Assembly (NCBI GenBank): GCA_950106755.1
Contig: OX467089.1
Span: forward strand, 18,519,345 to 18,583,344
Direction: 5' to 3'
From: Climacium dendroides
Lineage: Eukaryota; Streptophyta; Bryopsida; Hypnales; Climaciaceae
DNA: 64,000 nucleotides
Below, one piece after another: positions 8,021 through 64,000 of this stretch. A model generated the notes under the pieces. That model was not told the DNA's origin. It saw nothing but the letters and a program-made list of their open reading frames with translations, and ran no database searches. The translations under genes and the position numbers were made by a program. The number at the start of each line of letters is the position of its first letter. Within the stretch, counting starts at the first letter, position 1.

Positions 8021-8189
8021 TGTTTGAGTGAGAAGTTTACAATTTCTATAATTGAGAAGGTGATGAAGAGATTACAAAAAATTAAGTTAATTCATTCACA
8101 ATTGTTCACGCTCCAAGTCGGAAGGGGCTCACAGATACCAATTGGCGCTGGATCTGCCCACTCCGCAAGGGAAACAACTGCGCGGAATG

Positions 8190-19107: not shown

Positions 19108-19504
19108 GCATTCAAATTTAGAAAGGATTTGAATGAAGAACATTTACAGAACTTGGTGCTCAAATGCTTACGATTTAGAGAGATGAATAGCTAAGATTTA
19201 TTAGTTCTCGGAGCATTTCATAGTAGTACAAGGTTGCCAAATTATCTTGAAAAAATTAATGAAACTATCATTTTTGGGGGATTTTGTCCCAAGTGATAAT
19301 GAAGAAATCTTCATTGTGTTATTTTTTGTTCTCAATTTCAAGTGTGTAGCACGTAAAAATTTCTGAAGCGCCAAAACTCACAAATATGTAAGAAGAACCC
19401 TAAAACAAACTGAAAATCATGCAAAATTACAAAATGCAAAGTTACAAACCCTCACTCTCTCAGTCGGTCACTCCCAGACTCCCTAAACCCCTTGGCCCTT
19501 GAAC
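19108..19504. other. 3' non-coding region of the hAT-type element
   Basis: No gene. Diverged but collinear with the region downstream of the second copy's ORF (58551-58207 on the minus strand); AATTTCTGAAGCGCCA is shared. Confidence 0.6.
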
Positions 19505-19732
19505 CGTTCGCGCGTCCGCCCGTCCGCCAATCCGTCCGTTCTCCCGTCCGCTCATCCGCCCGTCCGCCACTCTGTCCGTCCGCCACTCTGTCCGCTCGCC
19601 CGTCCGCCCATCCGTCCGCCCGCCTGCCCGCCCGCAGGACGGCGACCGAGGACCGTCCGTCTGCGTCCGCAGGGTCCGGACGTCCGATTTTGGACGCAAT
19701 TTCGCCGCGGACGCATGTCCACGACAACCCTG
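19505..19732. repeat. R6: CCGTCCG subterminal cluster and hAT right terminus
   Basis: C-rich CGTCCGCC repeats ending in GTCCACGACAACCCTG at 19732. The reverse complement starts CAGGGTTGTCGTGGAC and aligns with the terminus at 58034, including an internal GCGTCCAAAA...GGACGTC block. The adjoining base 19733 resumes Gypsy integrase sequence, and the paralogous Gypsy copy near 31650 is continuous across this point, which fixes the boundary. Confidence 0.8.
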
Positions 19733-22700
19733 GTCGTGGAAGTATTTCCATTCTTGACTCAGCATTCCGAGCTGCCATTACACGGAATGTTTCCACCTCT
19801 AATTCCACCCCATGCATTGCTTCTTGTCCGAAGACCAGGAAGTATGGTGTCTTTCCAGTCGTGATTTTCTCCGTAGTGTTGTATGCATGGACCGCCAAAG
19901 GCAGTTTCCAGTCCCAATCCGTTTTGTGAATGGAAACCATTTTGTTCAGGATCTTACCAACGATACCGTTCACCCGCTCTGTCAATCTGTTCGCCTTTGG
20001 GTTGTAAGGAGTGGTCTTCCGGTGTTTGATGAGATATTTGCTCGTTAGGTCGAGGATGACATCATTGAGAAAATGAGTGCCCCGGTCACTGACTAACTCC
20101 AATGGGTGCCCAAATCACATGAGGATTTCTTCAAACAAAAAGTTCGCTGAAGTTTCTACATCGTTCTTCCTAGTTGCCTTGGCTTCCACCCATTTGGTCG
20201 CGTAATCCGTGGCTAGGATAATGTATCTCTTCTTCCGTGTATTGACCGGAAAGATAGGTCCGATAAAATCTATCCCCCATTTCTCAAAAGGTGCTAAAGG
20301 GATGATTGGAGTGAGCGGCCAATGGTTTCGGAAAGATGGTGCCCCGGTCCGTTGACACTAATCACAACTCCGTACATAACTTCTCACATCGCGGTGCAAG
20401 CCTGGCCACCAATATCCAGCTATATGGATCCGGTTGACAGTATTGACAAACGCAAAATGTCCTTCTGAACTTCCAGAATGAAGTACTCGAATTACCTTCT
20501 TCTGTTCAGGGAGCTCTAGGCATCTCCGGAGTACGTCATCCGGTCCTAACTTAAAGAGAACTCCTCGAATCAAGGTATAAGGAGCCACCTTTCTCTGAAA
20601 GATCTCTTTTTCCTCTCGGCTCATCTGATCCGGATATCTAGATTCCACTAAGTAATCTATGATATCTTGATATTCCGATATAGACTCATCATTGAGGTGA
20701 AAGACATCTAGTGAGGAAGTTTCCAGAAACTCATCCGGAAACCCAGCAGATATATTTGCTACGGATTCCGGTCCCTTTTTCCGGGAAAGGTAATCCGCGT
20801 TTGAATTTTCCTTTCCGGGTTTAACTACTACTTCATAGTTAAATTCCTGTAACAACAAAATCCATCTAGCAATCCGCCCTGACAAATCCGGTTTGTTTAC
20901 AAGGTACTTTAAAGAATCATGGTCCGTGTGAAAAATTACCTTGTAACCCAGAAGGTAATGTCGGAACTTTTTACAAGAGTACACCACAACCAACGCTTCC
21001 CGTTCCGTGGTGGTGTAATTCCGCTCCGCCATACTCATTTGCCTACTTGCGTAGTAAATCGGATTCTCGCGTTTTACTCCATCAAACTGCCAAAGAATAG
21101 ATCCGAGACACCAACCGGATGCATTGATGGTGACGTGGAACTCCTTGGTCCAATCCGAAACACACAAGATTGGAGCTTTAGCAAGCTGGAGTTTGAGATT
21201 TTCAAAAGCTTGCTGCCGGATTCCGGTCCATTCAAATTCCGTATCCTTCTTTAGGAGTTCTGTAAGAGGAATCGCTCTCTTAGCGTACCCGTCAATAAAC
21301 CGGCGGTAGTATCCGATACAGCCAAGAAATCCACGGATCTCTCTAACGTTGGTCGGAGGCAGTAAGGTTAACACTGCCCTGACTTTATCCATATCCGCCT
21401 GCAATCCGGATTTGCTGACTACATGTCCGAGTAGTATTCCGGAACTCATCCCGAAAAAGCACTTGCCCGGATGCAACTTCAGGTTGGTCTCTCGACATCT
21501 CTCAAAAGTTTTCCGTAAACTGTCCAAATGACTTTTCCGGTCATTGTAAACCGCAAAGTCATCGATAAATATCTCAATAAAATGTCGAAGAAAATCTCTG
21601 AAAATGTCCATCATGAGACGCTGGAAGGTTCCGGGTGCATTGCACAATCCAAACGGCATCCGTGTGAAAGCAAAAGTCCCTCATTCCGTTGTGAATGTTG
21701 TCTTCAACTGATCGCACCACCAGATGAAGACTTGATTGTAACCGGAAAATCCGTCCAGAAAACTGTAGCACTCGTGTCCGGACACTTGGTCCAAAATGAT
21801 ATCCGTGAACGGAAGAGGAAAATAATCCTTCTTTGTGGCTACGTTTAACTTTCGAAAATCCTGGCAAACCTGGATCTTGACTTTACCATCCGTTCCCACC
21901 TTTTTCGGAACCACTACGATAGGGGAAACCCACTCAGAATTGTTAACTAGATATATGAATCCGGCTTCCAATAATCGATTAATTTCCTCCTTCACCATCA
22001 ATGAGTACTTGGGGTTGAGCTAGTATTGTAGTTGACGGACCGGAATGGATCCTTCCGTCAAATCGATGTGGTGTTCTCCTAAATGAGGGGGAATCCCCTT
22101 CAAATCGGACGGCTCCCAAGCGAAAATGTCGAGATACTCCTTCAACAGCTGAATATATCCGGATCTCCTTTTTCCTTGTAACAGCCTATTGATGTAAAAG
22201 CTCTTACCGGGGTCGATTTCCACTTTCTCAAAATCCGTGGGTGAAACGACTGGTTTGATCTTTTCCGGATGAACTCCTTCCGGATCGGAATCTAAACCTG
22301 CCCACTCTGTTGTTTCCGTTCCGAGGATATTGGCTGGAAGATTTCCGGTTTGTATCTATCCGGCGATCCACTTAGTTGTAAGCGGAACGCTTGACTCTCC
22401 CAGTGATCGGTCTTCCACAACCGGATCTCCGGTTGTTTTCGGAAGATGCTCTAGGACGGCATTGGGGAAGCCATAGCTAGCCTCAGACTGATCTCCATAT
22501 GAGTCCACATAATAGCTAGGAGCGGAATCTTCCGGATCCGACCAATCCGTGGTGTATCCTTCCGAGTCGCTAGTTTCCCCCAGATGTCTTTCCGTCGCCC
22601 AAGGAATACGGATAGGAGGTTTTCCTACCACCAACTCCTTGGCTCCCCAATCTACCAGTACCCGGGCCGAATATAGCCAAGGTCTTCCGAGCAACATTGG

Positions 22701-23474
22701 AAATGGCCTTCCTTTGTTAACTCGGATAACCACGTAGTTCAGCAAGTAATCTATCCCCCCGATCCGGGTTGGTACATCCGATAATCTTCCGACCGGATTC
22801 ACCCGAGACTGGTCCGCCATTCTAAGGACTTGATCCGTGGCTTCAAGAGTGGTGAAACCTAAGTCAAATGCCGTCTCCTCCAACATTAAGTTGACCCCGG
22901 ATCCTCCATCTATAAGCACATGCGGAATCGAGCATCCCTCTATTTCCACAGTGACTTCTAGTGTTCCGGAATCTTCCGGTCTTCTGAAGTTCACTACAAC
23001 GGACGGAAGTTTCACTCGCCTCTTCCGTCTCCGTGTCCATGCCTCCCGGATCAGCTTCTGGTACGTCACATTGTCATGCAGTAGCTGACTGATAGTCACA
23101 TTCGCCTTCTGATCCTTGATGTCCTGGATGATGTTGTACTCCTGGGTACTTACATCCGGGTTGATAATGATAGGGGTGTCACTAAAACTCACCCTCTTTG
23201 GTTTAGGTACAGGATCCGATCTGGAAATTTCCGTTCGGATCTCTGCACTAATATCTCTCAGAATCCGATTCCTCTCCACCCCTTCCTCAGACTGAACCCT
23301 TTCCGATTCCGGTCTTACCTCTACAGGGACTGGGTCGGAATCACTACTTGATTCTGGTTTCTCCCTATGCTTTTTCCTCCTCCTCCTTCTATTCGACTGA
23401 TCCGGTTCATTCCGAGTGGAGCTGCGAGTGGTTACCCGGTTTACCATAGTTCCCACCTCATCTGGCAGCTCCAC
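19733..23474 (-). pseudogene. Gypsy pol: protease, reverse transcriptase, RNase H, integrase (truncated)
   Basis: Protease at 22356-23474 with an arginine-rich N-terminus, the active-site-type motif VLIDGGSGVN and MLLGRPWL. Reverse transcriptase spans about 21000-22223: YSFLDGFSGYNQ, then FIDDFAVY as the FxDD catalytic box. RNase H follows with INASGW where the first catalytic Asp is usual, so that residue appears changed. Integrase (19733-20450) has the HHCC-like and core motifs (WGIDFIGP, LVSDRGTHF) and is cut after AESRMEILPR by the hAT terminus. Stops occur at the QY/LNPK, TTE/GTF, SCD/CQR and EILM/FGH positions; each can be explained by one C-to-T or G-to-A change. Would have been cleaved from a polyprotein in virus-like particles. 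Confidence 0.85.
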
Positions 23475-23599
23475 TTCACACCGTCATTTTTCTGGATTCT
23501 CCGTGCCGGCCGTGTGTCCGTAGTTGAGGGCGGTTTGCTCCCTTGGAAGAATTTGCACTTGTTTATATACCGGCCTTGGTACAACCGGTTTCGGACATT

Positions 23600-25112
23600 G
23601 TTCTTCCGGATGTCCGTATTCCTAGCAGTTCTGGCAGGGAAGAACCCGTGGCACACCTTGCCCTATTCCCTTGTTTGGACAGGAATTGGCATAGTGTCCT
23701 GGTTCCCTACAACCATAACAAATCACCACTTGTCTATCCGGATAACTGGATGGTCTCATTGGCTGCTGCATCATCATCCCTTGACTTGATCCAGGTAAAA
23801 AGTTCCGGTTCAACATGTTGGAACGGATCGGAACAGCGATCCCTTTTCCACTTGCATAAGTTGGTTGAACCTGGTAAACTTCCCCTTCCTCTTCCGCCAT
23901 GGTGTAGTACATCTCTTCTTCCGGGTACACATAGTGAACCTGCTTCGATGGAGTCCGTGGACATTCACTCGGGTAGTGACCCGGTTCTCCACATCGTCCG
24001 CACTAGACATTAGATCGAGAAGTCGGAACAACCCGTCTTGGTTTCCAGTTCTCTGCGAGGTTAACCTTGATCGCCTCCAGAGACTCCTGAATGCTTTTCA
24101 TCATCTTCTTCGAATCCGTATCCTCCGCTTTCACCTTGATAGTGGTCTTCTCTCTCTAATTCCGTCTTGATGATCGCGGAGGTGGTGAAATACTTCTCTC
24201 TTCATCCGAACTGGAAGAATCCGAGTCCGAGGCTTCCGTTCCGGATGTATCAGAGCTGCTTTCCGATTCTGAGACCTTCTTCCGGTGCTTCGACTTTCGG
24301 TTGCCCTTCTTGTTCCGCTCTTTCTCCTTCTTCTCGCTTCTTCTCAGGGACTTCCGGAGTGACTGTGCCGAGTTCTCATAGTTGGCGGCAGCATCCATAG
24401 CTTCCCTTAGTGTCCTTGGCCGCGTCTGCCGGATTAAGAATCCCATAGATTTTGGCAATCCGGCCACGTACCATTCCACTTGTAAGTTAGGCGCAATTTC
24501 AGTGGTCAATTTCTGCATTAGCGCCTTTACTCTCTGTCCATACTTTCGTACGGATTCCGTTGACTTCATCGTGAGTGTGCTCAGCCGCCCCAGCGCTCGA
24601 GCCTCTCCTCCAACTTCTCGGAAGGCTTATAAGAAGTCCGCCTTCATCCGATCCTAATCATTCTGGATCAGATCCGGAACATCTTGGTACCATTTGAGGG
24701 CTTCTCCTTTTAACAATCCTTGGAAAATCCTTCTCTGGCCCGCCTCATTCTCTTGATTGGCGAGTGCGGTCGACTCAAACTCGCAGACCCATTCATCCGC
24801 ATCCTGGCTTCCATCTCCCTTGAAACGTTTGTATCTTAACCGGGTCATGTTGTCTTCCTTGTTGAATCGCAACTCTGCTACTTCCGGTTCAAATCCGTGC
24901 TCGGAAACTTGAGGTGTGTGTACCGGTCTTGGATTCTCGTCTAAATTCCTTAGTGCAGGAATTGGTTGATATTCCGGATCCGAGAAATCTGGATCACTCA
25001 AATTTGGCGCAGCCGATCCTTCCGCTTGATGAATATCTTTCTCCCTTTCCGCTTTCCGTTCGCTTCTTGTCCTTCTTCTCATGAGTACGAACTCCGGTTC
25101 CGGTTCATTCAA
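23600..25112 (-). pseudogene. Gypsy gag with CCHC zinc knuckle
   Basis: Starts MNEPEPEFVLMRRRTRSE just inside the PBS and continues through a retrotransposon-gag capsid domain (RYKRFKGDGSQDADEWVCEF, GEALKWYQD). A Lys/Ser-rich spacer follows, then a CCHC knuckle CYGCREPGHYANSC near 23700 and a second knuckle broken by TAG. Stops after LIQND, in FL/AFREVG, after SSRRN and in the second knuckle disable it. The gag is separate from the ORF found inside the LTRs. Confidence 0.8.
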
Positions 25113-25172
25113 ACGAAACCAAAGGTAACAGAATTACTACGACTCCCGGTGTAGAGTTTACTAGCTTTAGGA

Positions 25173-25190
25173 TCCCCAGCAGTGGCGCCA
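25173..25190 (-). other. Primer-binding site, tRNA-Asp-like
   Basis: On the minus strand TGGCGCCACTGCTGGGGA lies 10 bp inside the LTR end. It resembles the TGGCGCCGTTGCCGGGGA sites complementary to plant tRNA-Asp known from Athila/Tat-type Gypsy elements, with three differences in the first 17 bases. Confidence 0.7.
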
Positions 25191-26353
25191 GATTTTTGCG
25201 TGTCGCAGCACAGAGTAAGCAATTTCCCTATTATACTCACAAAAATCACTCTAGAGCATAACAAAACGACCCTAAAGATCGAACCCACGAGATCCTGTGA
25301 AGTAGCTAACTCTAACAAGGAGATAAATCCAATTGAACCCTTTAATTCTACTTTTCCGGTTCTACCTCTGACGACCAGAATATCAAACAACAACCGGAAG
25401 ACTACGACCGGACTGTATCCTACTTCCGGTTTTACTAGTTCCCCGGTTTCTGGACTGACTTCTCAATTCTGGACCCTGCAACTTCCGGTCTTATGTATCC
25501 TCTTGGGCGGATCCGATCCGGTCCACCCTTCCGTACCTGGTTTAATTTTACCTCTGTTTTATCATCAAAGGGTTCGCCGCTTGCTTTTGAAAGTGGTAGG
25601 CCCACCACTCCTTCCGTGACTTATAGTGGCTGAAGACCCACTTACCTATCCGCTGATCCGCTAACGAACACGGATCCGGTTTGGTCCTTCACGGTAATCC
25701 GGATAGCAATCCGAATCACAGGTCACACAAAGACCCCCCGTACGATCCTCTCATACTACAACGACCTTGACACTGATCCGTTCCGTACGAAGTTGGGTGG
25801 CTATAAGTGCATCCGTCCGTTCCAACATCTACGAAAGTTCTTCCGTTCACAACGGTCACAAGACCTCACAAGAGTCAGGATACTCGACCGGATTTTCCAC
25901 CCAGGAGTTCTAGCGTAGTTAAGGAATCCCTCCCTATCCGCCTAGCCTGATCAACGGATCTCTTACCCGGAATGCTAAACTTTTGTAGCTGCTGAGGCAC
26001 TGGAATCCACTCCTAACTCTTCATAACCTACTCACATGTACCTAGAACCGGAAACATACATCAAGGGGAGAAACTCTACCAACACCTCCGTACTCACCTT
26101 CCTATTCTGACTCCGTGCACTCTTGCCAACACTCGGGAAAAATACACAAAAGTTAGTTTAAAGGAAAGTACACAAGGAAATGCCAAAAGAACTCCTCCCT
26201 TTGTCTCCAACTCAAAGACTGTTTTATATACAAAAAGCAAAAAGCAAAAAGCAAAAAGTGAATACATGATTTCCGCCTCTGAAGGCGTTGACAATCCGGT
26301 CCTACCTTATCCTAACCAGATTCTATTCCGGTTCCTATCTATAAGTCCTATTT

Positions 26354-28028
26354 TTACAATCCTTCCTGTTCCGTCTCATACACTCGGGATCCAATGGTAG
26401 GGCTCTCATCAGGTCTCTCCAACTGCTCGAAGACCTTATTTAGATTCCGGTTCCGTTCCCCATCCGTAGGTAGAGCCGGGTGATCTTCCTCAGTTTCCGA
26501 GGAGTCTAAATCTATCGGCTGATGTCCGGTCGAGGGCGTCTCCTTCTTTGCCCTACTTGACTGGGGCGTCTTGTCCTTTCCCGGTTCCTGAGCTACGTCT
26601 TCCGGAAACAAGTCCGGAAGAGAAATTTCAGAGAGCCGGACCGAAACTTCTGTTAACTTCTGGCTGCTCTCCACGATCCGGTCCGTTGACTCCCGTGCCT
26701 TGGATAGGAGCTTCTCCATCTGCTCCTCAAAATCGGTGAGGATGTGCACCACCCTGGTTCCGGATATCTTCTTGTCCTTGTGCACCTCCTCTTCGAACAG
26801 GCGCGCCTTGGTGACCGCGGCTCCGGGTCCTCCAAGCACGTCCTTCACTTCTGCGGCCAACTTCTTCATTTCCTCCGCCATCTCCTTTGTCACGGTGGCG
26901 TTCTCAAGCAACGCGAAAAGTTCGGCCTTGAGGGTGTCCACCTCATCGTGCTGCCGCTTGCTGTCCTCCTTCATCTTCCGGAGCTTATCCGAATTGATAA
27001 CACTCTCAGCTACCTTCTGCGGCAACTGACTGTCCGGTTCCGCTCCGATTAATTCCGCGATCTCCCCGAGCGTCCGCTTCTTAACTTCCCAATCCGCCCG
27101 GATTCCGCAGAGGATACCAACCAACTTGTCGAACGGATCTCCGGTTCCCGATCCGGATGCCACATTCGGTCCGGTTGGAGTCTCACCTCTACGCAGCTGC
27201 GGATATCCCGGGGCGTTCCTTGATTCCGAGTCGGTGTGGTCTTCTGCCTCTTGGCGGGGACATACGGTTCTTCCTCTTCCTCTTCTTCTACTTCTTCCTC
27301 CTCGGTTTCGTTTCCGGAATCCGCTTCTTGGTCGGACTCGGATTCGCCGTACTTCATGGTCCGCTCCTGAGCCTTCCACACCTTCAGCTCCACTTCTGTC
27401 AGCATTTCCTGTTGTTGGTAGAGGTGGTACACATAAAGGCACAGTGGGATAGCCCTACTTCTCCCCACTCTTGTAGTAAGCTGGGACACTAGATCAAAGA
27501 AGATCCGGCCCCAGTCTACTTTCCGGGTTCCGCTCAGCGCTCTGAAAATCGTGTTAGCCAAGGTGATAGTCACCCTGGTGGGCTTTTCCGGATGCAAAAC
27601 CGGAACCAGGAACTAGAGCAGGCGACGCTCCCGGTCATCGAGGCAATCTTCGACCGCGTAGCCGTCCTTCGGGTTTACTACGCTTCCGAACTTGCCCTGG
27701 ACGAAATCATCCTTTCGGTTGGCAAGCTCGAGTCTTCCTGGCCGGAATCCATATACGTCCCGCACAAAGCCTCGGTCCATTGGACCGGATTCCCTCTTAG
27801 GGTGTTATCGAACTGATTCGATACGCCACTCAGGATTTCTCTAACCATCCTCTCATCTTTGAAACCCCAAGGTTTCAAAGCTAACCCCTAACAACCCATC
27901 AACGATAAATCCTCTCTGAGTTCTCCCTATTCCGGTTCCTTGGTCGGCATGACCGGAACCACTTTTCTAAGCTTTACTTCACTCGGGGGCGGGGTGTTAG
28001 AACCTCTCTTCCGGTTCAGCCGCGGCAT
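26354..28028 (-). pseudogene. LTR-encoded ORF, 5' LTR copy
   Basis: Starts MPRLN at 28028, about 310 bp downstream of the LTR TATA box. It includes KPWGF, NQFDNTL, NPKDGYAVEDY in the 3' LTR copy, a conserved FLVPVLHPEKPTRV-type block, an acidic glutamate run with nuclear-type basic residues after it, and a long helical or coiled-coil C-terminal half ending ETEQEGL. This copy has two single-base deletions (about 27762 and 27203) relative to the 3' LTR copy plus at least two TAG stops, one of them shared. It has no zinc knuckle or enzyme motif, so it is neither gag nor pol as I know them. Function unknown; a regulatory or structural accessory protein is possible. Confidence 0.7.
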
Positions 28029-28338
28029 GAGGGTAGCTCTACCCGGTTTTCACTCTCTACAGTCCTAACAAGGGAGCGCCGACACTTAGATGTTCCGCTC
28101 CGCTTGTAAACTAACCTACTGGTGTGCTCACACGCTCAGTCTCTCACGTATCCGCTCGCACTCAAGGTCTCACCCACTCATGTCCGGAGGAGATCTCTCC
28201 GTCTCACACCCCTCACTCACTTCCGGACCCTCTTGTACTTTCTCTCCTTGCCGTGGTCAACGATAAGAACGTCAAGCGCTAAATCAGGACACGACAACAC
28301 GTGGAAAACCAGAGACCTGAAAATGGGCAGGGTCAGGC

Positions 28339-28346
28339 TTTATATA
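28339..28346 (-). promoter_or_regulatory. LTR TATA box (5' LTR)
   Basis: TATATAAA about 285 bp inside the LTR start, followed by GCCTGACCCTGCCC. Transcription from here would place nearly the whole LTR, ORF included, in R-U5. Confidence 0.6.
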
Positions 28347-28628
28347 GTCCTGACGCCCTGGACTGTCTTTATGACCGGTCGGATATCCGGTCCGGTTCTT
28401 GACATCCGGTTCTCTCCAATCCGGTCAACAAGATTCCGGTTGGAAATACTATCCGGTTGTACATCTAATCCGTTCCGCTTCTACCTAAAACCGGATTAGT
28501 TCCATAAGGTCCTTTTGTGACTATTTTTGGATTTATCTTTCTCTCTAGATGAATCCGGATACCTATTTCTAATTTCCGGTTCACTCAAAAAGGTAAACAA
28601 ATAAAAATCAAAAATATGAGTTGTCACA

Positions 28629-28958
28629 ATCAGTAGTGTGATAGTGGGCAGAACTTGTCTGTGGATCCAGAAGGGGTAGTGCCCGGGAGTACCACCGACC
28701 ACGCCAATGATCCACCAACAGGTTGTGCCAAGTAATCACTCGATGTCATTTGTTGTAGCTCGACTCGAGCTGATGTGTATTCTAGAGCTGCATTTGTAGA
28801 TATAGTGTACAGAGTTTTTTTGTGGACACGGGAACTTCTAGTGGACTGAACCATGGAGTTCCAAATTTTGTAATCAATTTTGTATTTTAACACTCATTTG
28901 TTGAGGCTGTAATATATCGTTGTTTTATACAACATTTTATCTTAATTCTTCTATTGCA
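28629..28958. other. Short non-coding stretch
   Basis: No gene seen. Ends in a TTCTATTGCAG acceptor-like sequence directly before the next gene. Confidence 0.5.
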
Positions 28959-30073
28959 GGGCTTCAGAATGCTTTTAATGTTTGTACAACTCGCGCTTCT
29001 TCTGTAGCACCATCAATTCCTATGTTGGAAAATGAGTTTGTTGCCCTTGATGAAATGCCGGTGCTAGGACCTCCTCAAAGTGAATCGAAGAAGGTGGTTA
29101 CGACTGACATTCAACCTGAGGTTGAACCTGATGTTCCTACTGAGTCCTCTCAGCAGTAGGTATGTTCATTTCCCTATTGTCCACGGGTTCTGGAATTCGT
29201 ATCATTGTAGTGTCGACAAAAATAGGAGTTGCAGAATGTTAACTGTCCTCGCTCTATTCCTTTTGACAACAGGAATCTGGTCCTCCATGTCGTCGTGGAG
29301 GGACTTCGGAGGGCGTCGTTCGTCCATTCAGGTCCAGGGTGGCGGACAAGTGGATCAATGTTGTCCTGGACCTAAATGGCATTCTATGTGTCTGCGAAGA
29401 TTGGAAGTCCAAGGGATTGTCGCACAAAAAATTGAAAGACTTGTCGCAGCCGCACTCCGCAACTAAGCCCGCGCTAGTCAGACCCAAGGCTGTGTGGGTG
29501 CGGCCTCATTGCTCTAATTTCCTTACAAAGCTTCAAAAATTTGCAACAGTTTCAGTGTGGAGTTCTATGAAGAAGTCTACCACTGAACTGATTTCTCAAT
29601 ATCTTTTCCGAGACGGACTGCCGCCTTCCCAAATACTTGGGCAGGACTCCTGCCAAACACTAAAACAAAGAGATAGATCGGGAAGGTTGACCTATTTCAA
29701 AGTACCAGGAACGGACAAGGACTTATTCCTCAAAAATCTAGACCGGTTATTTAAAGATAGAAGAGGAAGCTTCTCGTCTGACAGTACTGTCATTGTAGAT
29801 GACAATCCTGTGAAGCATATAATGAACAGGCCTCATAATGTTATACTGCCTGATGCGTGGAGTTATAGAGGGAATGGTCCGCGGGACTCCTTTCTTTTCG
29901 ATGTTTTGCTTCCTTGGTTTCAACGTTTACACATAGCTCGAGACCAAGGTTTGAAGGCATTTAAGGAAAATGGTCCTGGAAGAATTGGGCGACAAATGCT
30001 TTGTGACGAAAGGAATCGCAAGGAGTACGAAGTGCTAATGGAAGTAGTTCACGCTTCGTCTAGTTTGAGTTAG
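28959..30073 (+). pseudogene. FCP1/NIF-type phosphatase-like gene (HAD fold)
   Basis: Two exons seem visible: 28959-29160 (GLQNAFN...) and 29273-30073, the second following TTTTGACAACAG. In frame it reads ESGPPCRRGG, then RVADKWINVVLDLNGILCV. The DLNG box stands where phosphatases have DxDx(T/V); some plant members of this family share the Asn, so loss of activity is not certain. STVIVDDNPVKH matches the family's C-terminal DD motif. The first exon ends CAGCAGTAG before GTATGT; if TAG was once CAG the splice is phase 0 and the protein is continuous. It lies beside sequence shared with the hAT-family copy at 58034-64000, so it may be captured cargo. No ATG is seen for the first exon, so the 5' end is missing or lies further upstream. 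Confidence 0.6.
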
Positions 30074-30489
30074 GTCATGGTCTATGGTTTCCTAGGGAAG
30101 TGTAGTTCGAGTGCAAGACTGGCGCATTTTAGCTCAATCCGCCTTAAATTGTATATACTTATTTTTTAATTGATACTGGTAGACTGGTGGATTGAATGAA
30201 TCCATTCAGAACGTTTAAGCGATATCAGTTTTGTGTGTGATATGTTTGAACTGCTTTGTTCCAGTATGTTGTGTGATCCACTTCATTCGTTTCAACTTGT
30301 GCAGTTTAGGTCGGTCCGACCTAAATAGCACATGCTTGGCTGATATACATGTCAAAGGTCTTTTGACCTTTTTGCTGGGTGTTGTCTTGTGTTTTAGTTC
30401 TTATATTGTTTGGTCTGTGTATTGCGTGGCAGTGTTTTCTCAATTTGAATTATGTTCTTCTTCAATCTGTGGCTTTCTTTGCTTGATAG
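30074..30489. other. Non-coding stretch between two genes
   Basis: T-rich; likely 3' region of the phosphatase-like gene and promoter or intron of the next. A small open frame at 30231-30548 has no recognisable features. Confidence 0.4.
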
Positions 30490-31101
30490 ATGATGAGAAC
30501 TTCGGAGGCCCATGTTCCGAAAGGTGGATTCGCTTCAAAGCCTATTGAGGACAATGTGGTCGACAGTCCTCCGAGTGGTAGGACGCGTCCGCGGCTTTCT
30601 TGCTCCCCGTCGCCGCTGTGATCCGTTGGCCAACGTGCTTTGCCGTCTACTTCTGATCGAATGACTCAAAGAAAGCTTTATGGGGAAGAAGGTTGTCCAC
30701 ACATTGGAACAAATGTGACTTTAGGCATTCCAAGTGAGATTTGCCAAGTGCGTCCAGATATTGCTTCCTCTCTTCCCCGCCTTCCTCCACTGACGGAAGG
30801 TGTCCAAACGAAGCGATCTCGGAGCTCTTCCATGTATATTGCAGAGGCGACCACACCGGAGGTTCCACTACCTCCAATTCATAGATGCAGATACTTGAAT
30901 GTTCCAAAACGTCAACGCTCAAGTCTTAGTGGAGAGTTCCGACTAGAGGGGAGCCGTCGTTTATGGGATGCTGCGGAAGAAAGGTCCTTGGAGAAGCAAA
31001 GGTGGGACATCATTCGAGAGCAGTCCGCAATTTGTACTGGGTATAGTAGAGGACCAAAAATATTGAAGGCATATGAGAAGTTGAAGAGTATGTCACAGTA
31101 G
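30490..31101 (+). pseudogene. Unknown 203-codon gene ending YEKLKSMSQ, copy 1
   Basis: Frame opens at ATGATGAGAACTTCGG and runs to TAG at 31099-31101 with one internal TGA after CSPSPL. The conserved part is basic and Arg/Ser-rich: TKRSRSSSMYIAEATTPEVP, YLNVPKRQR, GSRRLWDAAEERSLEK, RWDIIRE, CTGYSRG and the final YEKLKSMSQ. A second copy is at 63723-64000 plus 60143-60217 on the minus strand, split by a solo LTR, with its own premature stop. I do not recognise the family. Preservation of the amino-acid sequence in two loci suggests it is or was a real protein carried by the hAT-related element. Confidence 0.6.
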
Positions 31102-31512
31102 TAAAGCACATTATGCTTATTACGGAGCATGAGCTACATCATCCGATACAATGTAGATGTACAGATGAACATCAACAATTGTTGACCATGATAACATTTT
31201 TGGTTCCTTATAAAAGGCTACTGTAAAGTCTAGAATCCAAATGTAATTTTGGGTTCCTTATAAAAGGCTATTGTAAAGTCTAGAATCCAAAGTGTCATTC
31301 CATAGTGTACACACTATTACTTGTATATTTGATGGATATTATTGATAAATTCCATTCTTCTCATAATGGACTTGCAATATTTACACTCTTTTCTAATGAT
31401 GCATTGCTTTTCTCTCTCCGTATAGAACAAAATCACCTATGTTTAAAGAAAACTATGTATTTAGAACCTCTCATTTTCTTGGAAAACTCTCATTTTAATG
31501 AATATAGTGTTA
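31102..31512 (+). other. hAT-family spacer sequence
   Basis: Collinear with 60142-59676 on the minus strand, including AAAGCACATTATGCTTATTA, the TCTAGAATCCAAA block, CATAGTGTACAC and a final TTTTAATGAATATAGTGTTA. A 50-bp block is tandemly duplicated here (31197-31300) but single in the other copy. It ends at the junction to Gypsy integrase with a TA overlap. Confidence 0.7.
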
Positions 31513-31985
31513 CGGAGAAAACCACGACCGGAAAGACACCACACTTCCTAGTCTTCGGACAAGAAGCAATGCATGGGGTGGAATTAGAAGTGGAAACATT
31601 CCGTGTAATGGCAGCTCGGAATGCCGAGTCAAGAATGGAAACACTTCCACGACTCATTGCTATTGAAGAACTGGAGGAAATCCGAGATGCAGCACTGGAG
31701 AAGACTATGGGTGTTCAAGAGAAGCGGAAGGTAATCTACGACCGGAAACTTCCAGCTGACGACGGAATTCGAGAAGGAGGATTGGTCCTTCTATACGACA
31801 ACCGTCACAAGGATTTTCCAGGTAAATTACATACCAGATGGATGGGGCCATTCCGAGTGAATCAAGTTTTTCAGAATGGTTCTTTGCAACTAGAAACATT
31901 GCAGGGCTAGTGGCTTGATACTTGGGTGAATGGATTGAGAGTAAAAAAATATAATGCTGCTACATCATCCGAGGACGAGGAATGA
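31511..31985 (+). pseudogene. Gypsy integrase C-terminal fragment
   Basis: Reads TEKTTTGKTPHFLVFGQEAM, then a KVIYDRKL segment and the chromodomain-less C-terminal motif GPFRVNQVFQNGSLQLETL, TAG at 31908-31910, and WLDTWVNGLRVKKY to TGA at 31985. It shows the continuous integrase sequence across the point where the hAT end interrupts the other copy. Confidence 0.8.
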
Positions 31986-32006
31986 TGTTCACGAGGACGC
32001 TCACAG

Positions 32007-32021
32007 ATGAGGAAGGGGTAA
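32007..32021 (+). other. Polypurine tract
   Basis: GATGAGGAAGGGGTA-type purine run directly before the 3' LTR start, the expected plus-strand primer site. Confidence 0.6.
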
Positions 32022-32305
32022 TGTGACAACTCATATTTTTTATTTTTATTTGTTTACCTTTTTGAGTGAACCGGAAATTAGAAATAGGTATCCGGATTCA
32101 TCTAAAGAAAGAAAGATAAACCCAAAAATAGTCACAAAAGGACCTTACGGAACTAATCCGGTTTTAGGTAGAAGCGGAACGGATTAGATGTACAACCGGA
32201 TTAGATTTCCAGCCGGAATCTCGTTGACTGGATTGGAGAGAACCGGATGTCAAGAACCGGACCGGATATCCGACCGGTCATAAAGACAGTCCAGGGCGTC
32301 AGGAC

Positions 32306-32313
32306 TATATAAA
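32306..32313 (+). promoter_or_regulatory. LTR TATA box (3' LTR)
   Basis: TATATAAA followed by GCCTGACCCTGCCC, 318 bp before the ORF start codon at 32624. Confidence 0.6.
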
Positions 32314-32623
32314 GCCTGACCCTGCCCATTTTCAGGTCTCTGGTTTTCCACGTGTTGTCGTTTCCTGACTTAGCGCCTGACGTTCTTATCGTTGACCACG
32401 GCAAGGAGAGAAAGTGCAAGAGGGTCCGGAAGTGAGTGAGGGGTGTGAGACGGAGAGATCTCCTCCGGACATGAGTGGGTGAGACCTTGAGTGCGAGCGG
32501 ATACGTGAGAGACTGAGCGTGTGAGCACACCAGTAGGTTAGTTTACAAGCGGAGCGGAACATCTAAGTGTCGGCGCTCCCTTGTTAGGACTGTAGAGAGT
32601 GAAAACCGGGTAGAGCTACCCTC

Positions 32624-34303
32624 ATGCCGCGGCTGAATCAGAAGAGAGGTTCTAACACCCCGCCCCCGAGTGAAGTAAAGCTTAGAAAAGTGGTTCCGGT
32701 CATGCCGACCAAGGAACCGGAACAGGGAGAACTCAGAGAGGATTTATCGTTGATGGGTTGTTAGGGGTTAGCTTTGAAACCTTGGGGTTTCAAAGATGAG
32801 AGGATGATTAGAGAAATCCTGAGTGGCGTATCGAATTAGTTTGATAACACCCTGAGAGGGAATCCGGTCCAATGGACCGAGGCTTTGTGGCGGGACGTAT
32901 ATGGATTCCGGCCAGGAGGACTCGGGCTTGCCAACCGGAAGGATGATTTCGTTCAGGGCAAGTTCGGAATCGTAGTAAACCCGAAGGACGGCTACGCGGT
33001 AGAAGACTACCTCGATGACCGGGAGCGTCGCCTGCTCCAGTTCCTGGTTCCGGTTCTACATCCGGAAAAGCCCACCAGGGTGATTATCACCCTGGCTAAC
33101 ACGATCTTCGGAGCGCTGAGCGGAACCCAGAAAGTAGACTGGGGCCGGATCTTCTTTGATCTAGTGTCCCACCTTACTACAAGAGTGGGGAGAAGTAGGG
33201 CTACCCCACTGTACCCTTATGTGTACCACCTCTACCAGCAACAGGAACTGCTGACGGAAGTGGAGCTGAAGGTATAGAAGGCTCAGGAGCGGACTATGAA
33301 GTATGGTGAATCCGAGTCCAACCAAGAAGTGGATTCCGGAAACGAAACCGAGGAGGAGGAAGAAGAAGAAGAAGAGGAAGAGGAGGAACCGTATGTCCCC
33401 GCCAAGAGGCAGAAGACCACACCGACTCGGAATCGAGGAACGCCCCCGGGACATCCGCGGCCGCACAGAGAGGAGACTCCAATCGGACCGGATGTGGCAT
33501 CCGGATCGGGAACCGGAGATCCGTTCGACAAGTTGGTTGGTATCCTTTGCGGAATCCGGGCGGATTGGGAAGTTAAGAAGCGGACGCTCGGGGAGATCGC
33601 GGAATTAATCGGAGCGGAACCGGACAGTTAGTTGCCGCAGAAGGTAGCTGAGAGTGTTATCAATCCGGATAAGCTCCGGAAGATGAAGGAGGACAGCAAG
33701 CGGCAGCACGATGAGGTGGACACCCTCAAGGCCGAACTTTTCGCGTTGCTCGAGAATGCCACCGCGACAAAGGAGATGGCGAAGGAAATGAAGAAGTTGG
33801 CCGCAGAAGTGAAGGACGTGCTTGGAGGACCCGGAGCCGCGGTCACCAAGGCACGCCTGTTCGAAGAAGAGGTGCACAAGGACAAGAAGATATCCGGAAC
33901 CAGGGTGGTGCACATCCTCACCGATTTTGAGGAGTAGATGGAGAAGCTCCTATCTAAGGCATGGGAGTCAGCGGACTGGATCGTGGAGAGCAACCAGAAG
34001 TTGATAGAAGTTCCGGTCCGGCTCTTTGAAATTTCTCTTCCGGACTTGTTTCCGGAAGACGTAGCTCAGGAACCGGGAAAGGACAAGACGCCCCAGTCAA
34101 GTAGGGCAAAGAAGGAGACGCCCTCGACCGGACATCAGCCGATAGATTTAGACTCCTCGGAAACTGAGGAAGATCACCCGGCTCTACCTACGGATGGGGA
34201 ACGGAACCGGAATCTAAATAAGGTCTTCGAGCAGTTGGAGAGACCTGATGAGAGCCCTACTATTGGATCCCGAGTGTATGAGACGGAACAGGAAGGATTG
34301 TAA
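32624..34303 (+). pseudogene. LTR-encoded ORF, 3' LTR copy (560 codons)
   Basis: One reading frame from ATG (MPRLNQKRG) to TAA at 34301-34303 with no frameshift, interrupted only by five TAG codons at about 32762, 32837, 33275, 33629 and 33935. At three of these the 5' LTR copy has Gln or Trp, so C-to-T or G-to-A change explains them. Regions in order: basic N-terminus; globular block (KPWGFKDERM, NPKDGYAVEDY, LQFLVPVLHPEKPTRV, ALSGTQKVDWGRIF); glutamate run; DPFDKLVGILCGIRADWEVK; long helical segment; acidic tail. The homologous ORF in the solo LTR at 61531-63126 shows that the protein was maintained across diverged families. Function unknown. Confidence 0.75.
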
Positions 34304-35460
34304 AAATAGGACTTATAGATAGGAACCAGAATAGAATCCGGTTAGGATAAGGTAGGACCGGATTGTCAGCGCCTTCAGAGGCGGAAATCATGTATTCACT
34401 TTTTGCTTTTTGCTTTTTGCTTTTTGTATATAAAACAGTCTTTGAGTTGGAGACAAAGGGAGGAGTTCTTTTGGCATTTCCTTGTATACTTTCTTTTAAA
34501 CTAACTTTTGTATAATTTTCCCAAGTGTTGGCAAGAATGCACGGAGTCAGAGTAGGAAGGTGAGTATGGAGGTGTTGGTAGAGTTTCTCCCCTTGATGTA
34601 TGTTTCCGATTCTAGGTACATGTGAGTAGGTTATGAAGAGTTAGGAGTGGATTCCAGTGCCTCAGCAGCTACAGAAGTTTAGTATTCCGGGTAAGAGATC
34701 CGTTGATCAGGCTAGGCGGATAGGGAGGGATTCCTTAGCTGCTCTAGAACTCCTGGGTGGGAAATCCGGTCGAGTATCCTGACTCTTGTGAGGTCTTGCC
34801 ACCGTTGTGGGTAAACGGAAGAACTTTTGTAGGTGTTGGAACGGACGGGTGTACTTGTAGCCACCTAACTTCGTACGGACCGGAGCAGCGTCAAAGTCGT
34901 TGTAGTATGAGAGGATTGTACGGGGGGGTCTTTGTGTGATCTGTGATTCAGATTGCTATCCGGATTGCTGTGAAGGACCAAACCGGATATGTGTTAGTTA
35001 GAGGATCAGTGGATAGGTAAGTGGGTCTTCAGCCACTATAAGTTACGGAAGGAGTGGTGGGCCTACCACTTTCAAAAATAAGCGGCGAACCCTCTGATGG
35101 TAAACCAGAGGTAAAACTAAACCGGGTACGGAAGGGTGGACCGGATCGGATCCGCCCAGGAGGGTACATAAGACCGGAAGTTGCATGGTTCAGAATTCAG
35201 AAGTCAGTCCAGAGACCGAGGAACTAGTGAAACCGGAAGTAGGATACAGTCCGGTCGTAGTCTTCCGGTTGGTGTTTGACATTCCGGTCGTCAGAGGTAG
35301 AACCGGAAAAGTAGAATTAAAGTGTTTAATTGGGTTATCTCCTTGTTAGAGTTAGCTACTTCATAGGATCTCATGGGTTCGATCTTTAAGATCATTTTGT
35401 TATGCTCTAGGGTGATTTTTGTGAGTATAATAGGGAAATTGCTTACTCTGTGCTGCGACA

Positions 35461-59690: not shown

Positions 59691-60217
59691 TAAAATGAGA
59701 GATTTCCAGATAACTGAGAGTTAAAAAAATCACAATTGTTTATGAATATACAAATATTGGAGCATGGTAAGAGAGTGAAAAGCAATAAACTTATACACAC
59801 AGTACAAATGTAGGTGCAAGTTCCTTTCAAAACCAATGCACTTTATAGGAAATAGCCATCACATATATAAATATAAGTGTACACTATAGGATGACAAGAT
59901 CTAAAGACACCCAAAACTATACAATAGATTCAGTCGTAGCGTTGCACATGGTTCTAGAAGCATCACCACCCCTGACAAATAAACATCCAAAAATTACATT
60001 TGGATTCTAGACTTTACAATAGCCTTTTATAAGGAACCCAAAATGTTGTCATGGTCAACAATTGTTGATATTCAACTCTTCATCTACATTGTATCAGATG
60101 ATGACTGTAGCTCATGCTCCATAATAAGCATAATGTGCTTTACTACTGTGACATACTCTTCAACTTCTCATATGCCTTCAATATTTCCGGTCCTCTACTG
60201 TACCCAGTACAAATTGC
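59691..60217 (-). other. hAT-family spacer and end of the YEKLKSMSQ gene
   Basis: Positions 60143-60217 encode the end of the gene (CTGYSRG... to SMSQ, TAG at 60143-60145). The rest is the spacer collinear with 31102-31512, with about 110 bp extra here. Confidence 0.65.
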
Positions 60218-61530
60218 TGTCGCAGCACAGGGTAAGTGAAATTCCCTATTATGCACACAAAAACCTCTTTAAAGCATAATAAAGTGACTCTAAAGATCAA
60301 ACCTAAGAGACTCTATGAAGTGTTTCGTGTTACTAGATGATTTGAAGAAAGTTTCTCAATTCTATTACTCTTCTTTATCACCCTTCTTTATCCCTCTTCA
60401 CCCTTTTTCCCAAATATCGGATAATTTCCTCCTCTTTCTATAGACGGATCCGGTCCAGAATAACACTGACCCGAATCACAATCGATCGACAATCCACAAG
60501 AACCAAACCGGAACTCACACTTCCGACCGGATCTCGTACTACTTTAACCAAGGACTTCCTTTCCTCAATTTCTATTCCGGTTTTGCTTAGCCTCTGTTGG
60601 CACTTCAGAGGGATTTGCCACTTATTTTCAGAGAGGTAGGCACTCCTCTCTTTCAGGTCTTTATAGTGATGGAAAATTCACTCAGCTAATCTATCCTTCT
60701 ATTCTAACAGGATCCAGTTTGATCTTTCACAACAAACTAGAAATAATCCCAGTATGTAGGTCACACAAAAATCCCCCATACAATCCTCACTCACTACAAC
60801 GACCTTACTATCTTTTGAAATCCGTGCAAAACTAAGGTGGCTACAAGTGCGTCTGCCCGTATCAGCACAATCTAGCGCTCTTCCGTTTACTTCTTCAGAT
60901 GGTGAGACCTCTCAAGTGTTCGGAGGCTAACCTAGACATTCCATCTGGTAGCTCTAGCATAGTTTGAGAATCCTTTCTCTTGCTATCTAGCCTAGCACTG
61001 GCTATCTCACCCGAAATTATGAACTCTAAACCTACTGAGGTGTCTTGATTCACTCCCAACACTTACAACCTGTTCACATGTACCTGCAATCACAAGAAGA
61101 CAACAAGGGGAGAAGATCTTCTCACACTCTACTCATCTATACTCAATCTCTCCCTCCTTTATCCGGCCAATCTTTGGGAAGACGAAGAAAACAATAGACA
61201 ATACACAAGAGACAATATATGCAAGAAGGAAAAAACTCCCAGTCTCAATTTTGAAACTTGAATTATATACATAATTTTACAAAAAGGTCTCCTCGGAAAT
61301 CCGGCACTGATCCGGTCAAGATTTTTGGATCTGAACTTTTCCTAACTTTCCGGAATGAGGTCCGGTCTAACAAGATTTCCTACTCTCTAATTTCTAACTA
61401 CCTATCCCTCTTGAGGGGGTCCACTACTATTTGGAGTAGCTATGGGGGAGAGCTCACTCAAATTTCTACTCTTATCTCCCCCTTTCGGAACTCGTTCCGG
61501 TTCTATAGGAGAAGTTACTCTTGTCATCGT

Positions 61531-63126
61531 CTATGGGGCTTCTGAAGTGGAAGTCCTTCCGGCCTCCTTCTCCTTCGATATTGGAGTTTCGAACTTCCCC
61601 TCCAATATCTCTACCTCATCGAACTCATCCGGGATCGAAATCCCGGATAAAGAGACGGTATCCTCCAACCCCTTTGCATCCTTCCGGAATTCCTTCATGG
61701 CCTCTTCTAACTCCCCGGCAAAGTCAGCCAAGATGCGAGCGATGCAGGTACTTGAAGGTTTCTGATTCTTATGTACCCCCTCGTCAAACAATTTGGCCTT
61801 TGCCATTACCTCACCGGATGCCCCTACTACTGCCGTCATCCGGTTGATCGCAACCTTGGTCTCCTCCTGCAGAGACATTGCGGCCTTTACTTGGTTGCGA
61901 CTAGCATCCAAATCCTTCCGGTAACTTTGGATCTCTCCTCGCAACCGAACCACCTGCTCGTCTGTCTCTTGCTGATTAATATTTTGCTTCAGCAACCTAT
62001 CCTCCAACTCCTTCACTTCGTCCGGATTGCTGATGCAGTTCGCTACGGCTTCCGATATAGAGCTAGTCGGAGCGCTTCCCACCAAATCCACCACCTCGCG
62101 AAGCGTCGTGGTCTTCACCTCCCAATCCGCTCTCACTGCATTGAAAATCCGGATTAGGTTGTTGTTTGGACCCGTCAGGTCCATCAACTGGGACGATGGA
62201 ACGGGTTTCGGCTTGACCACTTCCACCGGCTCCTGCTTCTTTGGAGTAACCGACTCCACTAGTTCCGGTCCCTTATCCTTCCGAAGCCCCGAAGGAGACC
62301 CCTTTAGACTGGGCATCCTCTTCCTCCTTCGGTTGAGAGGAATGTCATCTTCCTCCTCTTCCTCTTTTGCCCAATTCCTCTTCTTAGGGTTTTCACCCTT
62401 CTCCTTCGGTTCTGTCTTGGATTCTTCATCCGATCCACCGCACGTCCAGAGAGCCATCTGAGCCCTCCACTCCTTGTTCTCCTCTGACGTCAGGAGACTC
62501 GGATTCTTGTATAGGTGGAAAAGGTAGGGGCATACCGGAGTAGCCCTACTCTTTCCCACATTTGAGACCAAGACATTCACCAATGTCTGAATGAAGGCCG
62601 CCCAATCCATCCACTTCTCTCCGCTCAGGGCTCCAAAGATTGCGTTTCCGAACATGGAAGTCACCTGGGTGGGTTTTTTCGGATGTAGGATCGGGACCAG
62701 GAATTCAAGTAGTCGTCTGTGCCGCGCATTGACACAGTCTTCGATGGCGTACCCGTCCTTGGGGTTAGCCGCTCCCTTGAACTTCCCGCGCACGAAGTCT
62801 CCCTTCTGGCTAGCCTATTCCGCGCGGCCTTCCTCCAAGTCGTAAACTTTCCTCCAGATCTCCCTTGTCCACATAGGCAGAGCCGGTCAGATAGTGTTGT
62901 CGAACTGGTTAGGGGCTCCTTCAATGAGCTCCCTAACTATGGCTTCGCTTCGAAACCCCCAGGGTTTCCCCAGGAATCCTGCGCATCCCATAACGGAGAG
63001 GTCTTCCATCAATTCTACTCTCTTCCGCTCACTACTGGGCTCTAAAGGAGCCACCTTCCTCACTCTGATTTCTATCCTCTGAGCGCTTGCTTGTACCTGA
63101 TTTCGTCCGCGCTTTAATTGTGGCAT
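61531..63126 (-). pseudogene. LTR-encoded ORF in the solo LTR (532 codons)
   Basis: One frame from MPQLKRGRN at 63126 to the stop at 61531, broken by only two stops (TGA at 62887-62889, TAG at 62815-62817). Aligned with the Gypsy LTR ORF it shares the start MP.L, MEDLSVMGC, GKPWGF, NQFDNT, NPKDGYAIED, LEFLVPILHPKKPT, NAIFGALSG and VRADWEVKTTTLREV. A Glu/Lys/Arg-rich middle with RRRKRM may be a nuclear signal, and the C-terminal third is predicted helical. Amino-acid conservation despite DNA divergence argues that this is a true LTR-borne protein. Function unknown. Confidence 0.75.
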
Positions 63127-63457
63127 TCGTCTCTCTTTTAGATCGCTACCTCTCTTCTCTCCTAGCCGCACGTCTCGTTTCCTCACACACACTCCTCGGT
63201 CTCAACTGAGTCACTCAATGCACAAGTCTCGCGGTTCTCTCTCTCTCTCTCAATTCCAACCACGCTCGCGCACCCAATTCCTCTCTAATCCCTGCGCCTG
63301 TGTAAAGAAAACAAACACACTTACTCACAACTCTCAGACCTTGCACAATTCTCACGCAAACATACTTAATTTGCAGACACAAACTCAAAGCACTGAGAGC
63401 GCGCCAAGTACGCTGGTGCTCCTAGGTGCAAATGACAGCCAAACCCTAAAACAGTCT

Positions 63458-63465
63458 CTTTTATA
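63458..63465 (-). promoter_or_regulatory. Solo-LTR TATA box
   Basis: TATAAAAG on the minus strand, about 335 bp upstream of the ORF ATG, nearly the same spacing as in the Gypsy LTR (318 bp). Confidence 0.55.
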
Positions 63466-63722
63466 CCCCGAAAACCTAATCATTACTTTTTTCCGATTTT
63501 CTGGACGCGAATCTTGGATCCGTTCCTCCGGTTATAGGACTAGACCGGATTCATTTCCGATATCCGTTCCGCTCCATAATCCGGTTCATTCAGGGCTTAT
63601 GTTTCTAGTCTTCCTAACTTTTGGCTTTTCCTTTCCCTTCCGTGCTAATTCGGGTCTACTTAATCCGGATTCCATGTTACAAAACATGATAGAGAGAAAA
63701 TTCAAAAAGTTAGGTTGCGACA

Positions 63723-64000
63723 ATTGCGGACCGCTCTCGAATGATGTCCCACCTTTACTTCTCCAAGGACCTTTCTTCCGCAGCATCCCATAAACGACGG
63801 CTCCCTTTTAGTTGGGACTCTCTACTAAGACTTGAGCGTTGACGTTTTGGAACATTCAAGTATCTACGTCTGTGAATTGGAGGTAGTGGAACTTCTGGTG
63901 TAGTCGCCTCTGCAATATACATGGAAGAGCTCCGAGATCGCTTCGTGTGGACACCTTCCATCAGTGGAGGAAGGCAGGAAAGAGAAGAAGCAATATTTGG
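63723..64000 (-). pseudogene. Unknown YEKLKSMSQ gene, copy 2 (5' piece)
   Basis: Minus strand, continuous with 60143-60217 before the solo LTR inserted. It shares TKRSRSSSMYIAEATTPEVP, YLNVPKRQRSSLS and GSRRLWDAAEERSLEK with 30490-31101, then a TAA in place of a Gln codon before RWDIIRE. The 5' end lies beyond the window. Confidence 0.65.

Follow-up and report, generated by a model that had tools for sequence, protein, structure and literature searches.

A 64,000-nucleotide stretch of the moss Climacium dendroides genome (GCA_950106755.1, contig OX467089.1, positions 18,519,345 to 18,583,344; hereafter the window) contains remains of a Ty3/Gypsy retrotransposon family whose long terminal repeats (LTRs) carry an open reading frame (ORF) of their own. 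The ORF lies inside the LTR, is flanked by two TATA boxes and is under purifying selection in intact copies elsewhere in the genome, and a short CCGGA-core motif has accumulated over the element. On a narrow balance, we favor the reading that this is an accessory gene within the U3 (unique 3') region of the LTR, the product of which would be a VANC-like anti-silencing protein acting through the CCGGA motif. To our knowledge, genes inside LTRs are very rare. Three LTRs of interest were found in the window (Table 1), the left and right repeats L and R and the solo LTR S of a related family.

A first-pass annotation of the window had placed the ORF inside the LTRs, and this placement, as opposed to one in internal sequence, is upheld here. 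S is a solo LTR enclosing the ORF and is flanked by a 5-bp target-site duplication (TSD). When its two flanks were joined, they aligned over the junction to a paralogous empty site (30754-31253) at 92.9 % over 504 columns. The surrounding sequence is a coding-like repeat of about 93 % identity (30754-31253 versus 59987-60217 plus 63722-64000), the latter copy of which is split by S.

Paired LTRs were then considered. An exact pattern for the junction between LTR end and primer-binding site (PBS) occurred 13 times in the genome, and its reversed control did not occur. Ten of these 13 loci were examined (one on C27, the window's own and one on C117 were left out), and four had a direct LTR partner (C40, 98.0 %; C38, ~97 %; C2, 91.0 %; C1, 99 %). 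The 5' LTR of C38 lacks about 220 bp and the 3' LTR of C1 is split by about 3.1 kb. Matching 5-bp TSDs were observed at C40 (TCTTG) and C38 (GAGTT), both with PBS and polypurine tract; the TSD of C1 is off by one base (GTCCC and GTTCC) and the flanks of C2 are unmatched. C15 has one inverted copy and a partial direct copy, C16 has 138 bp only, and no partner LTR was present in the stretches fetched for C31, C37, C39 and C117. The expectation that homologous sequence would be found within paired LTRs was borne out by the two TSD-flanked elements (C40 and C38), which carry the ORF in direct LTRs, so the ORF sits in true LTRs of complete insertions. It is broken in both LTRs of C40; unbroken frames are found in the 3' LTR of C38 (566 codons) and the 5' LTR of C31 (565 codons). 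As for copies lacking any ORF remnant, the result is divided: ORF sequence is present in the 5' LTR at 7 of the 10 loci, and at C16, C39 and C117 (L019, L025 and L031) R was matched by the last 137-938 bp of the LTR only, with no ORF found there. These three 5' LTR stretches may be truncated, interrupted or variant LTRs.

L and R are about 3.43 kb each, have TG...CA ends, share 95.3 % identity and lie in opposite orientation. Their lengths (3428 and 3439 bp) and a TATATAAA box 283-285 bp from the 5' end agree with the first-pass annotation, which had described LTRs of ~3.4 kb with a TATA box about 285 bp inside. Both start with TGTGACAAC and end with TGCGACA. On its own strand L is followed by CGCAAAAATC, the PBS-like sequence TGGCGCCACTGCTGGGGATC, which we take to resemble that of Athila elements, and gag. 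The gag region has two CCHC knuckles and a further one broken by a stop, and the left element shows the Ty3/Gypsy domain order (RT and RNase H ahead of integrase; gag with CCHC), while the capsid match (E-value 0.0015) and the integrase core match (E-value 0.011) were both below their cut-offs. The ORF is thus, as first proposed, an extra protein within the LTRs in the sense of gag-pol, with the PBS-like sequence, gag and pol outside. R is preceded by the purine tract GATGAGGAAGGGGTAA.

L occupies the place of a 5' LTR and R that of a 3' LTR. Since they are inverted to each other and their outer 5-bp flanks are unequal (CTGAT for L and GTTAG for R), the earlier pairing of them as 5' and 3' LTR of a single intact element does not hold. 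L and R may be one rearranged element or two insertions; a stop codon shared by their ORFs, the integrase overlap and the unequal flanks all bear on this choice. The integrase pieces of the left and right elements overlap by 143 bp (19733-19875 and 31511-31653, inverted, 95 % identical), an arrangement compatible with either an inversion whose breaks were staggered or two insertions.

Homologues P0002-P0004 (553-561 aa) match the window at three places over nearly their full length: R (32624-34276) in one frame, L (28028-26381) in three frames and S (63126-61417, minus strand) in one frame. Both ORF copies reported earlier are therefore real as coding sequence, but neither is open (five TAG codons in R, three frames in L), and the third copy at 63126-61417, which also has internal stops, had been overlooked. 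The first Met is at LTR position 603 in R, 601 in L and 597 in S, i.e. about 600 bp from the LTR 5' end. The longest sense frames of L (366 codons) and S (427 codons) exceed the simulated maxima of 240 and 192 (500 simulations each), while the longest stop-free stretch of R (145 codons) is inside the range simulated for L (mean 109, maximum 240). A chance ORF was ruled out by these simulations together with the purifying selection in intact copies. Reading TAG as an amino acid in R was also rejected, as L lacks four of the five TAGs at those positions and intact copies need no recoding. One stop codon is common to L and R, which indicates that their shared source was probably broken already. 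Differences between the L and R ORFs by codon position (20/22/27) have no bias, so no selection is visible between these two dead copies.

The left ORF piece was searched against the 412.6-Mb assembly containing the window, and 113 of 4370 candidates were scored. At least 114 matched rows were obtained, 16 of which combined a match free of stops with an open frame of 563 codons or more. When these 16 and four more places were fetched, an ATG-started ORF of 556-560 aa was present in 14 of the 20, with 359-549 aa in the remaining six. Among the 14 intact copies the median nonsynonymous divergence (dN) was 0.033, the median synonymous divergence (dS) 0.155 and the median dN/dS 0.211 (range 0.15-0.38); the ratio was below 1 in all 91 pairs, and differences by codon position numbered 2088, 1558 and 4958. 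The copies were chosen as open, which excludes nonsense changes, yet this choice alone would not push dN/dS so low. The ORF is under purifying selection in intact copies. In the 600 bp 5' of the ORF the median difference was 0.073, half of dS, so it seems that this region is constrained too or that synonymous change is unusually fast.

A second family in the same genome encodes a protein of 632-633 aa with about 32 % identity to P0003. Its ORF begins about 625-630 bp from a TGTCGTAG boundary, which is common to five of the six copies compared while their flanks differ; in the sixth the match starts a few bases later. A partner LTR was sought at one copy, and none was present in the stretches fetched. 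These distances and the selection above speak against a host gene or other transposon that was inserted once into the LTR and stayed as a functionless passenger. Such a passenger would agree with the lack of a precomputed Pfam domain in the 120 listed homologues. It is contradicted by the dN/dS of 0.21, by the second family's ORF lying at a like distance from its TG boundary, and by the alignment of sequence on either side of the ORF between the two distant families of R and S (71 % of aligned bases identical in the 5' stretch and 72 % in the 3' stretch; z 10 and 70, respectively, against 60 simulated sequences each). A nested insertion or passenger was rejected on the flank alignment and the purifying selection, and we regard it as highly improbable.

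The TATATAAA box is found on both sides of the ORF. Of the 14 intact copies, 13 have the first box, 290-327 bp upstream of the ATG, and all have the second, 118-126 bp past the last codon. In S, TATAAAA is at LTR position 258 and TATATAA at 2454, the latter aligned with the second box. Both boxes occur at six of the ten PBS loci, only the second at C1, and neither at C16, C39 and C117. At C1 (L013 and L014, G000:C1) both LTRs lack LTR positions ~247-1459, that is, the first TATA box and the N-terminal half of the ORF, and despite this common deletion of about 1.2 kb they are 99 % identical to each other. C1 is a derivative that moved recently while lacking the gene in cis; neither the first TATA box nor the protein in cis was required for this transposition.

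The first-pass annotation had placed the transcript start at the first TATA box, so that nearly the whole LTR would be R-U5 (the repeated and unique 5' regions) and the ORF would come first in the genomic RNA. This arrangement would fit any function of the protein, and the retention of the first box in 13 of 14 intact copies would suit it. However, the second box is kept in 14 of 14, and C1, with the second box and without the first, has nearly identical LTRs; we therefore consider this start site unlikely. From a TATA box on each side of the ORF and the mobility of C1 we infer instead that the second box probably starts the gag-pol RNA, and the same data support a U3 position of the ORF with its own promoter.

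Homology searches with the protein gave 5, 234 and 19 hits (120 of the 234 were listed), and none of the homologues among the matches listed has a precomputed Pfam domain. In a tree of 97 N-terminal domains, deep clades with many close copies were observed, which has the look of transposon families. Pfam searches of the protein gave weak matches under the cut-offs, mostly to coiled coils, and the PDB searched by sequence likewise returned coiled coils and acidic or helical stretches. No relative was found in viral and genome contig collections. In the full-length model of P0003 (predicted local distance difference test, pLDDT, 73.3), residues ~20-228 form a well-ordered N-terminal domain and residues 301-467 a long helical part, while the acidic linker between the two and the tail are both disordered; a coiled coil is predicted in the LTR-ORF protein. 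With the full model, Foldseek found nothing at E ≤ 0.001 in PDB and BFVD, and in VIA almost nothing but its helical part was aligned. The N-terminal domain model aligns over 190 residues to DNA-bound VANC21 (9lnj, identified by title), the only fold match. The linker has a nuclear localization signal (NLS)-like K[KR].[KR] motif in 41 of 84 proteins, versus 14 % in shuffles. The model lends support to a putative DNA-binding N-terminal domain of VANC type, and the NLS-like motif to a possible nuclear location. DUF1985 and DUF287, the domains named for VANC proteins in PMC5735166, were absent among the Pfam matches listed (alignments for 25 of 110 and 113 families; HMMER filters drop weak matches).

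If the protein is VANC-like, copies of a short motif should have built up in the element. The CCGGA core was first spotted by eye in LTR sequence after the VANC21 fold match and then tested, with unrestricted k-mer ranking. When 5-mers were ranked against dinucleotide expectation, CCGGA or the overlapping ATCCG/CGGAA headed the list in four of the five element parts, and the remaining one, the S ORF, had AGTAG first and CCGGA second. Observed versus expected counts were, for example, 71 versus 14.6 in the internal region and 28 versus 4.0 in the noncoding LTR of L, and CCGGA did not enter the leading six 5-mers of any of the eight control regions taken from the window. Core density was 8.4-23.3 per kb in ten element parts versus 0.88 per kb in 44 kb from elsewhere in the window. 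Within L and R it was highest in the 5' noncoding part (21.6-23.3 per kb); it was 18.5-19.1 in their ORFs and 13.0 in gag-pol, and the 511-bp internal remnant of the right element has two sites only. In the element of L, A is favored and C avoided at -2, A/T prevails at -1 (84 %) and directly after the core (85 %), and the context is flat beyond. Five other 9-kb stretches gave 0.3-0.9 per kb (L022, L024 and L026) or about 11.6 (L018 and L032, picked as likely to contain element sequence).

In the longer coding parts the core sites lie on both strands and in all three frames. Synonymous-codon shuffling, which preserves protein and codon usage, was applied with 1000 shuffles unless stated. The observed count, shuffle mean and number of shuffles reaching the count were 22, 8.8 and 0 for RT-RH; 32, 13.2 and 0 for the R ORF; 14, 5.0 and 1 for the S ORF; 15, 7.4 and 4 for PR; and 7, 2.2 and 1 for gag2. 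No clear excess was found for gag1 (7, 4.7 and 114) and integrase (1, 0.95 and 698), and in six control ORFs 25 to 1000 shuffles reached the observed count. Two intact copies (36 versus 15.3 and 35 versus 13.9) and two second-family ORFs (14 versus 4.6 and 15 versus 5.6) were reached by none of 500 shuffles each. This excess indicates that in most coding parts the motif is maintained at the DNA level and not through the protein. In the second family its context leans to the palindromic ATCCGGAT.

CCGGA was within the leading three 5-mers at six of eight divergent loci, fourth at L033 and outside the leading six at L034. The latter, a divergent copy (G000:C2:50297928-50302202), has the over-represented words GACATC and ACGTC beside ATCCGG, possibly another motif specificity. 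Between R and S, three of the four S sites located 5' of the ORF have an R site close by (reached by 20 of 2000 rotations), as do two of the nine located 3' of it (254 of 2000), the sites being few in both cases. Among tandem arrays listed for 19000-36000, one short LTR array (32180-32217) coincides with core sites and the others do not.

We propose that the U3 part of the LTR holds a complete gene: the first TATA box lies about 320 bp 5' of its start codon, the ORF has about 558 codons, and the second TATA box follows. The gene would be copied with both LTRs and could persist in solo LTRs. The product would be nuclear and work like VANC of the Arabidopsis VANDAL transposons: its N-terminal domain would bind the CCGGA-core motif (~WCCGGAW) dispersed over the element on both strands, the protein would oligomerize via the coiled coil, and binding would keep DNA methylation off motif-bearing copies in trans.

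The same features could belong to a transcriptional regulator that binds the CCGGA core and turns the promoters of its own LTR on or off, leaving methylation untouched. The DNA-binding-like fold, predicted coiled coil and NLS-like motif would suit this, as would the crowding of core sites upstream of the first TATA box (nine positions in R and ten in L within the first 250 bp) and the peak in 5' noncoding density. A promoter regulator, however, has no need of a motif abundant in gag-pol and the ORF, far from the TATA boxes, and the sole fold match is VANC21; we hold it to be a doubtful explanation. A role as accessory protein in the particle or in replication (in packaging, nuclear import or integration), with the motif read as element RNA or DNA during reverse transcription, appears decidedly unlikely. 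The coiled coil, the NLS-like motif and the element-wide distribution of the motif agree with such a role, and extra ORFs with no assigned function are described as common in LTR elements in PMC7264820. A motif on both strands, kept by two distant families, suits double-stranded DNA better than RNA, and an element with its ORF deleted (C1) transposed, although complementation could explain that too.

Mouse mammary tumour virus (MMTV) encodes Sag, a membrane superantigen, within its LTR. The likeness is one of position, in U3 on our reading and hence in both LTRs, and no sequence kinship is claimed; here the protein is predicted to be DNA-binding-like with an NLS-like motif and occurs in several retrotransposon families. 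VANC21 of VANDAL21, an Arabidopsis Mu-like DNA transposon, is comparable in other respects: it too is an element-encoded protein, the N-terminal domain model aligns to it over 190 residues, short motif copies are many in both elements, and the mobile ORF-deleted copy would fit action in trans. Unlike VANC, the present gene is in a Ty3/Gypsy LTR, not in a Mu-like VANDAL transposon, and has no detectable sequence similarity to VANC21. In PMC5735166 and PMC10398659, where anti-silencing VANC is described for VANDAL DNA transposons, VANC21 is reported to recognize YAGTATTAY, which has accumulated in VANDAL21 within tandem repeats of noncoding sequence, and to bring about methylation loss there. 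The motif here is CCGG-based, mostly dispersed and both coding and noncoding, and the anti-silencing effect is proposed by analogy.

Among plant LTR elements, the additional ORFs (aORFs) Grande gene23, Retand ORF4 and that of RIRE2 are internal to the element, most often after pol and ahead of the 3' LTR, in sense or antisense, and the Grande product is nuclear (PMC7264820). They resemble the present ORF as extra conserved frames beyond gag-pol and differ from it in that ours is in the LTR and in sense. Sunflower Tekay elements have an additional ORF with a double-stranded RNA-binding-like fold, likewise an LTR retrotransposon protein that could counter silencing, with another predicted fold; the passage cited gives no LTR position for it (PMC12844716). 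That 2026 paper on LTR elements takes VANC as its example and poses as a question whether further LTR lineages have proteins with which they shape the methylation of their own copies. ORFs inside LTRs were not named in titles or abstract openings of the open-licence literature searched with narrow terms, which agrees with the earlier statement that no plant family with an LTR protein was described.

If our reading is right, a retrotransposon would defend itself from DNA methylation by sequence-specific binding; the gene would be in the LTR because it is doubled per element there and a solo LTR can preserve it; and the genome, which has no fewer than 14 intact copies, would offer a testable protein-motif pair. 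A wider proposal is put forward tentatively: in a large Ty3/Gypsy group the LTR would be a self-contained anti-silencing gene, with a VANC-fold protein and the motif throughout the element, and the domain class would be old and shared with VANDAL. LTRs with intact ORFs, possibly solo LTRs too, would then be genes, and copies that are otherwise dead could continue to protect live ones. Even without anti-silencing, a multi-family protein for which no Pfam match was found and which is under purifying selection inside LTRs means that such LTRs should be annotated as genes and not only as regulatory repeats.

Table 1 Features of the LTRs and associated elements in the window
Feature	Position	Strand	Remarks
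Left LTR L	25201..28628	-	3428 bp, TGTGACA...TGCGACA; then PBS-like sequence and gag
Right LTR R	32022..35460	+	3439 bp
Solo LTR S, related family	60218..63722	-	3505 bp, TGTCGCA...TGCGACA
TSD GCAAT of S, 5' copy	63723..63727	-	
TSD GCAAT of S, 3' copy	60213..60217	-	
Paralogous empty site of S insertion	30754..31253	+	GCAAT at 31027-31031
LTR ORF remnant in L	26357..28028	-	split across three frames
LTR ORF remnant in R	32624..34303	+	one frame, five internal TAG
LTR ORF remnant in S	61417..63126	-	longest open stretch 427 codons; ~40 % identity to P0002 and P0003
TATATAAA box 1 of L	28339..28346	-	~320 bp 5' of ORF
TATATAAA box 2 of L	26223..26230	-	~120 bp 3' of ORF
TATATAAA box 1 of R	32306..32313	+	
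TATATAAA box 2 of R	34427..34434	+	
PBS-like sequence TGGCGCC...	25171..25190	-	3' of L
Left element, internal region	19733..25112	-	3' part missing
Left element, gag	25112-24159	-	CCHC knuckles near 24002 and 23720
Left element, PR	23483-22359	-	identified by eye
Left element, RT-RNase H and integrase zinc-binding domain	21680-20361	-	one frame, in that order
Left element, integrase	20114-19733	-	
Integrase remnant and polypurine tract	31511..32021	+	just 5' of R

The Rfam scan of 22000-36000 and the tRNA scan across the window were both empty. Between the inverted LTRs, an ORF at 29339-30073 has an NLI-interacting-factor-like phosphatase domain (PF03031, E-value 2e-15). At 15707-18001 a hAT-like transposase, with matches to DUF659 and the hAT dimerisation domain, has an open frame of 765 codons. 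At 39526-39751 there is a perfect inverted repeat with two 113-bp arms, 100 % complementary and with zero spacer, which may be a hairpin, a fold-back produced by the assembly or a palindrome of recent origin. A GC-rich, CCGTCCGCCC-like tandem array was found at 19504-19635, and a similar stretch at ~8100-8590 reads as long Arg/Pro/Ser frames.
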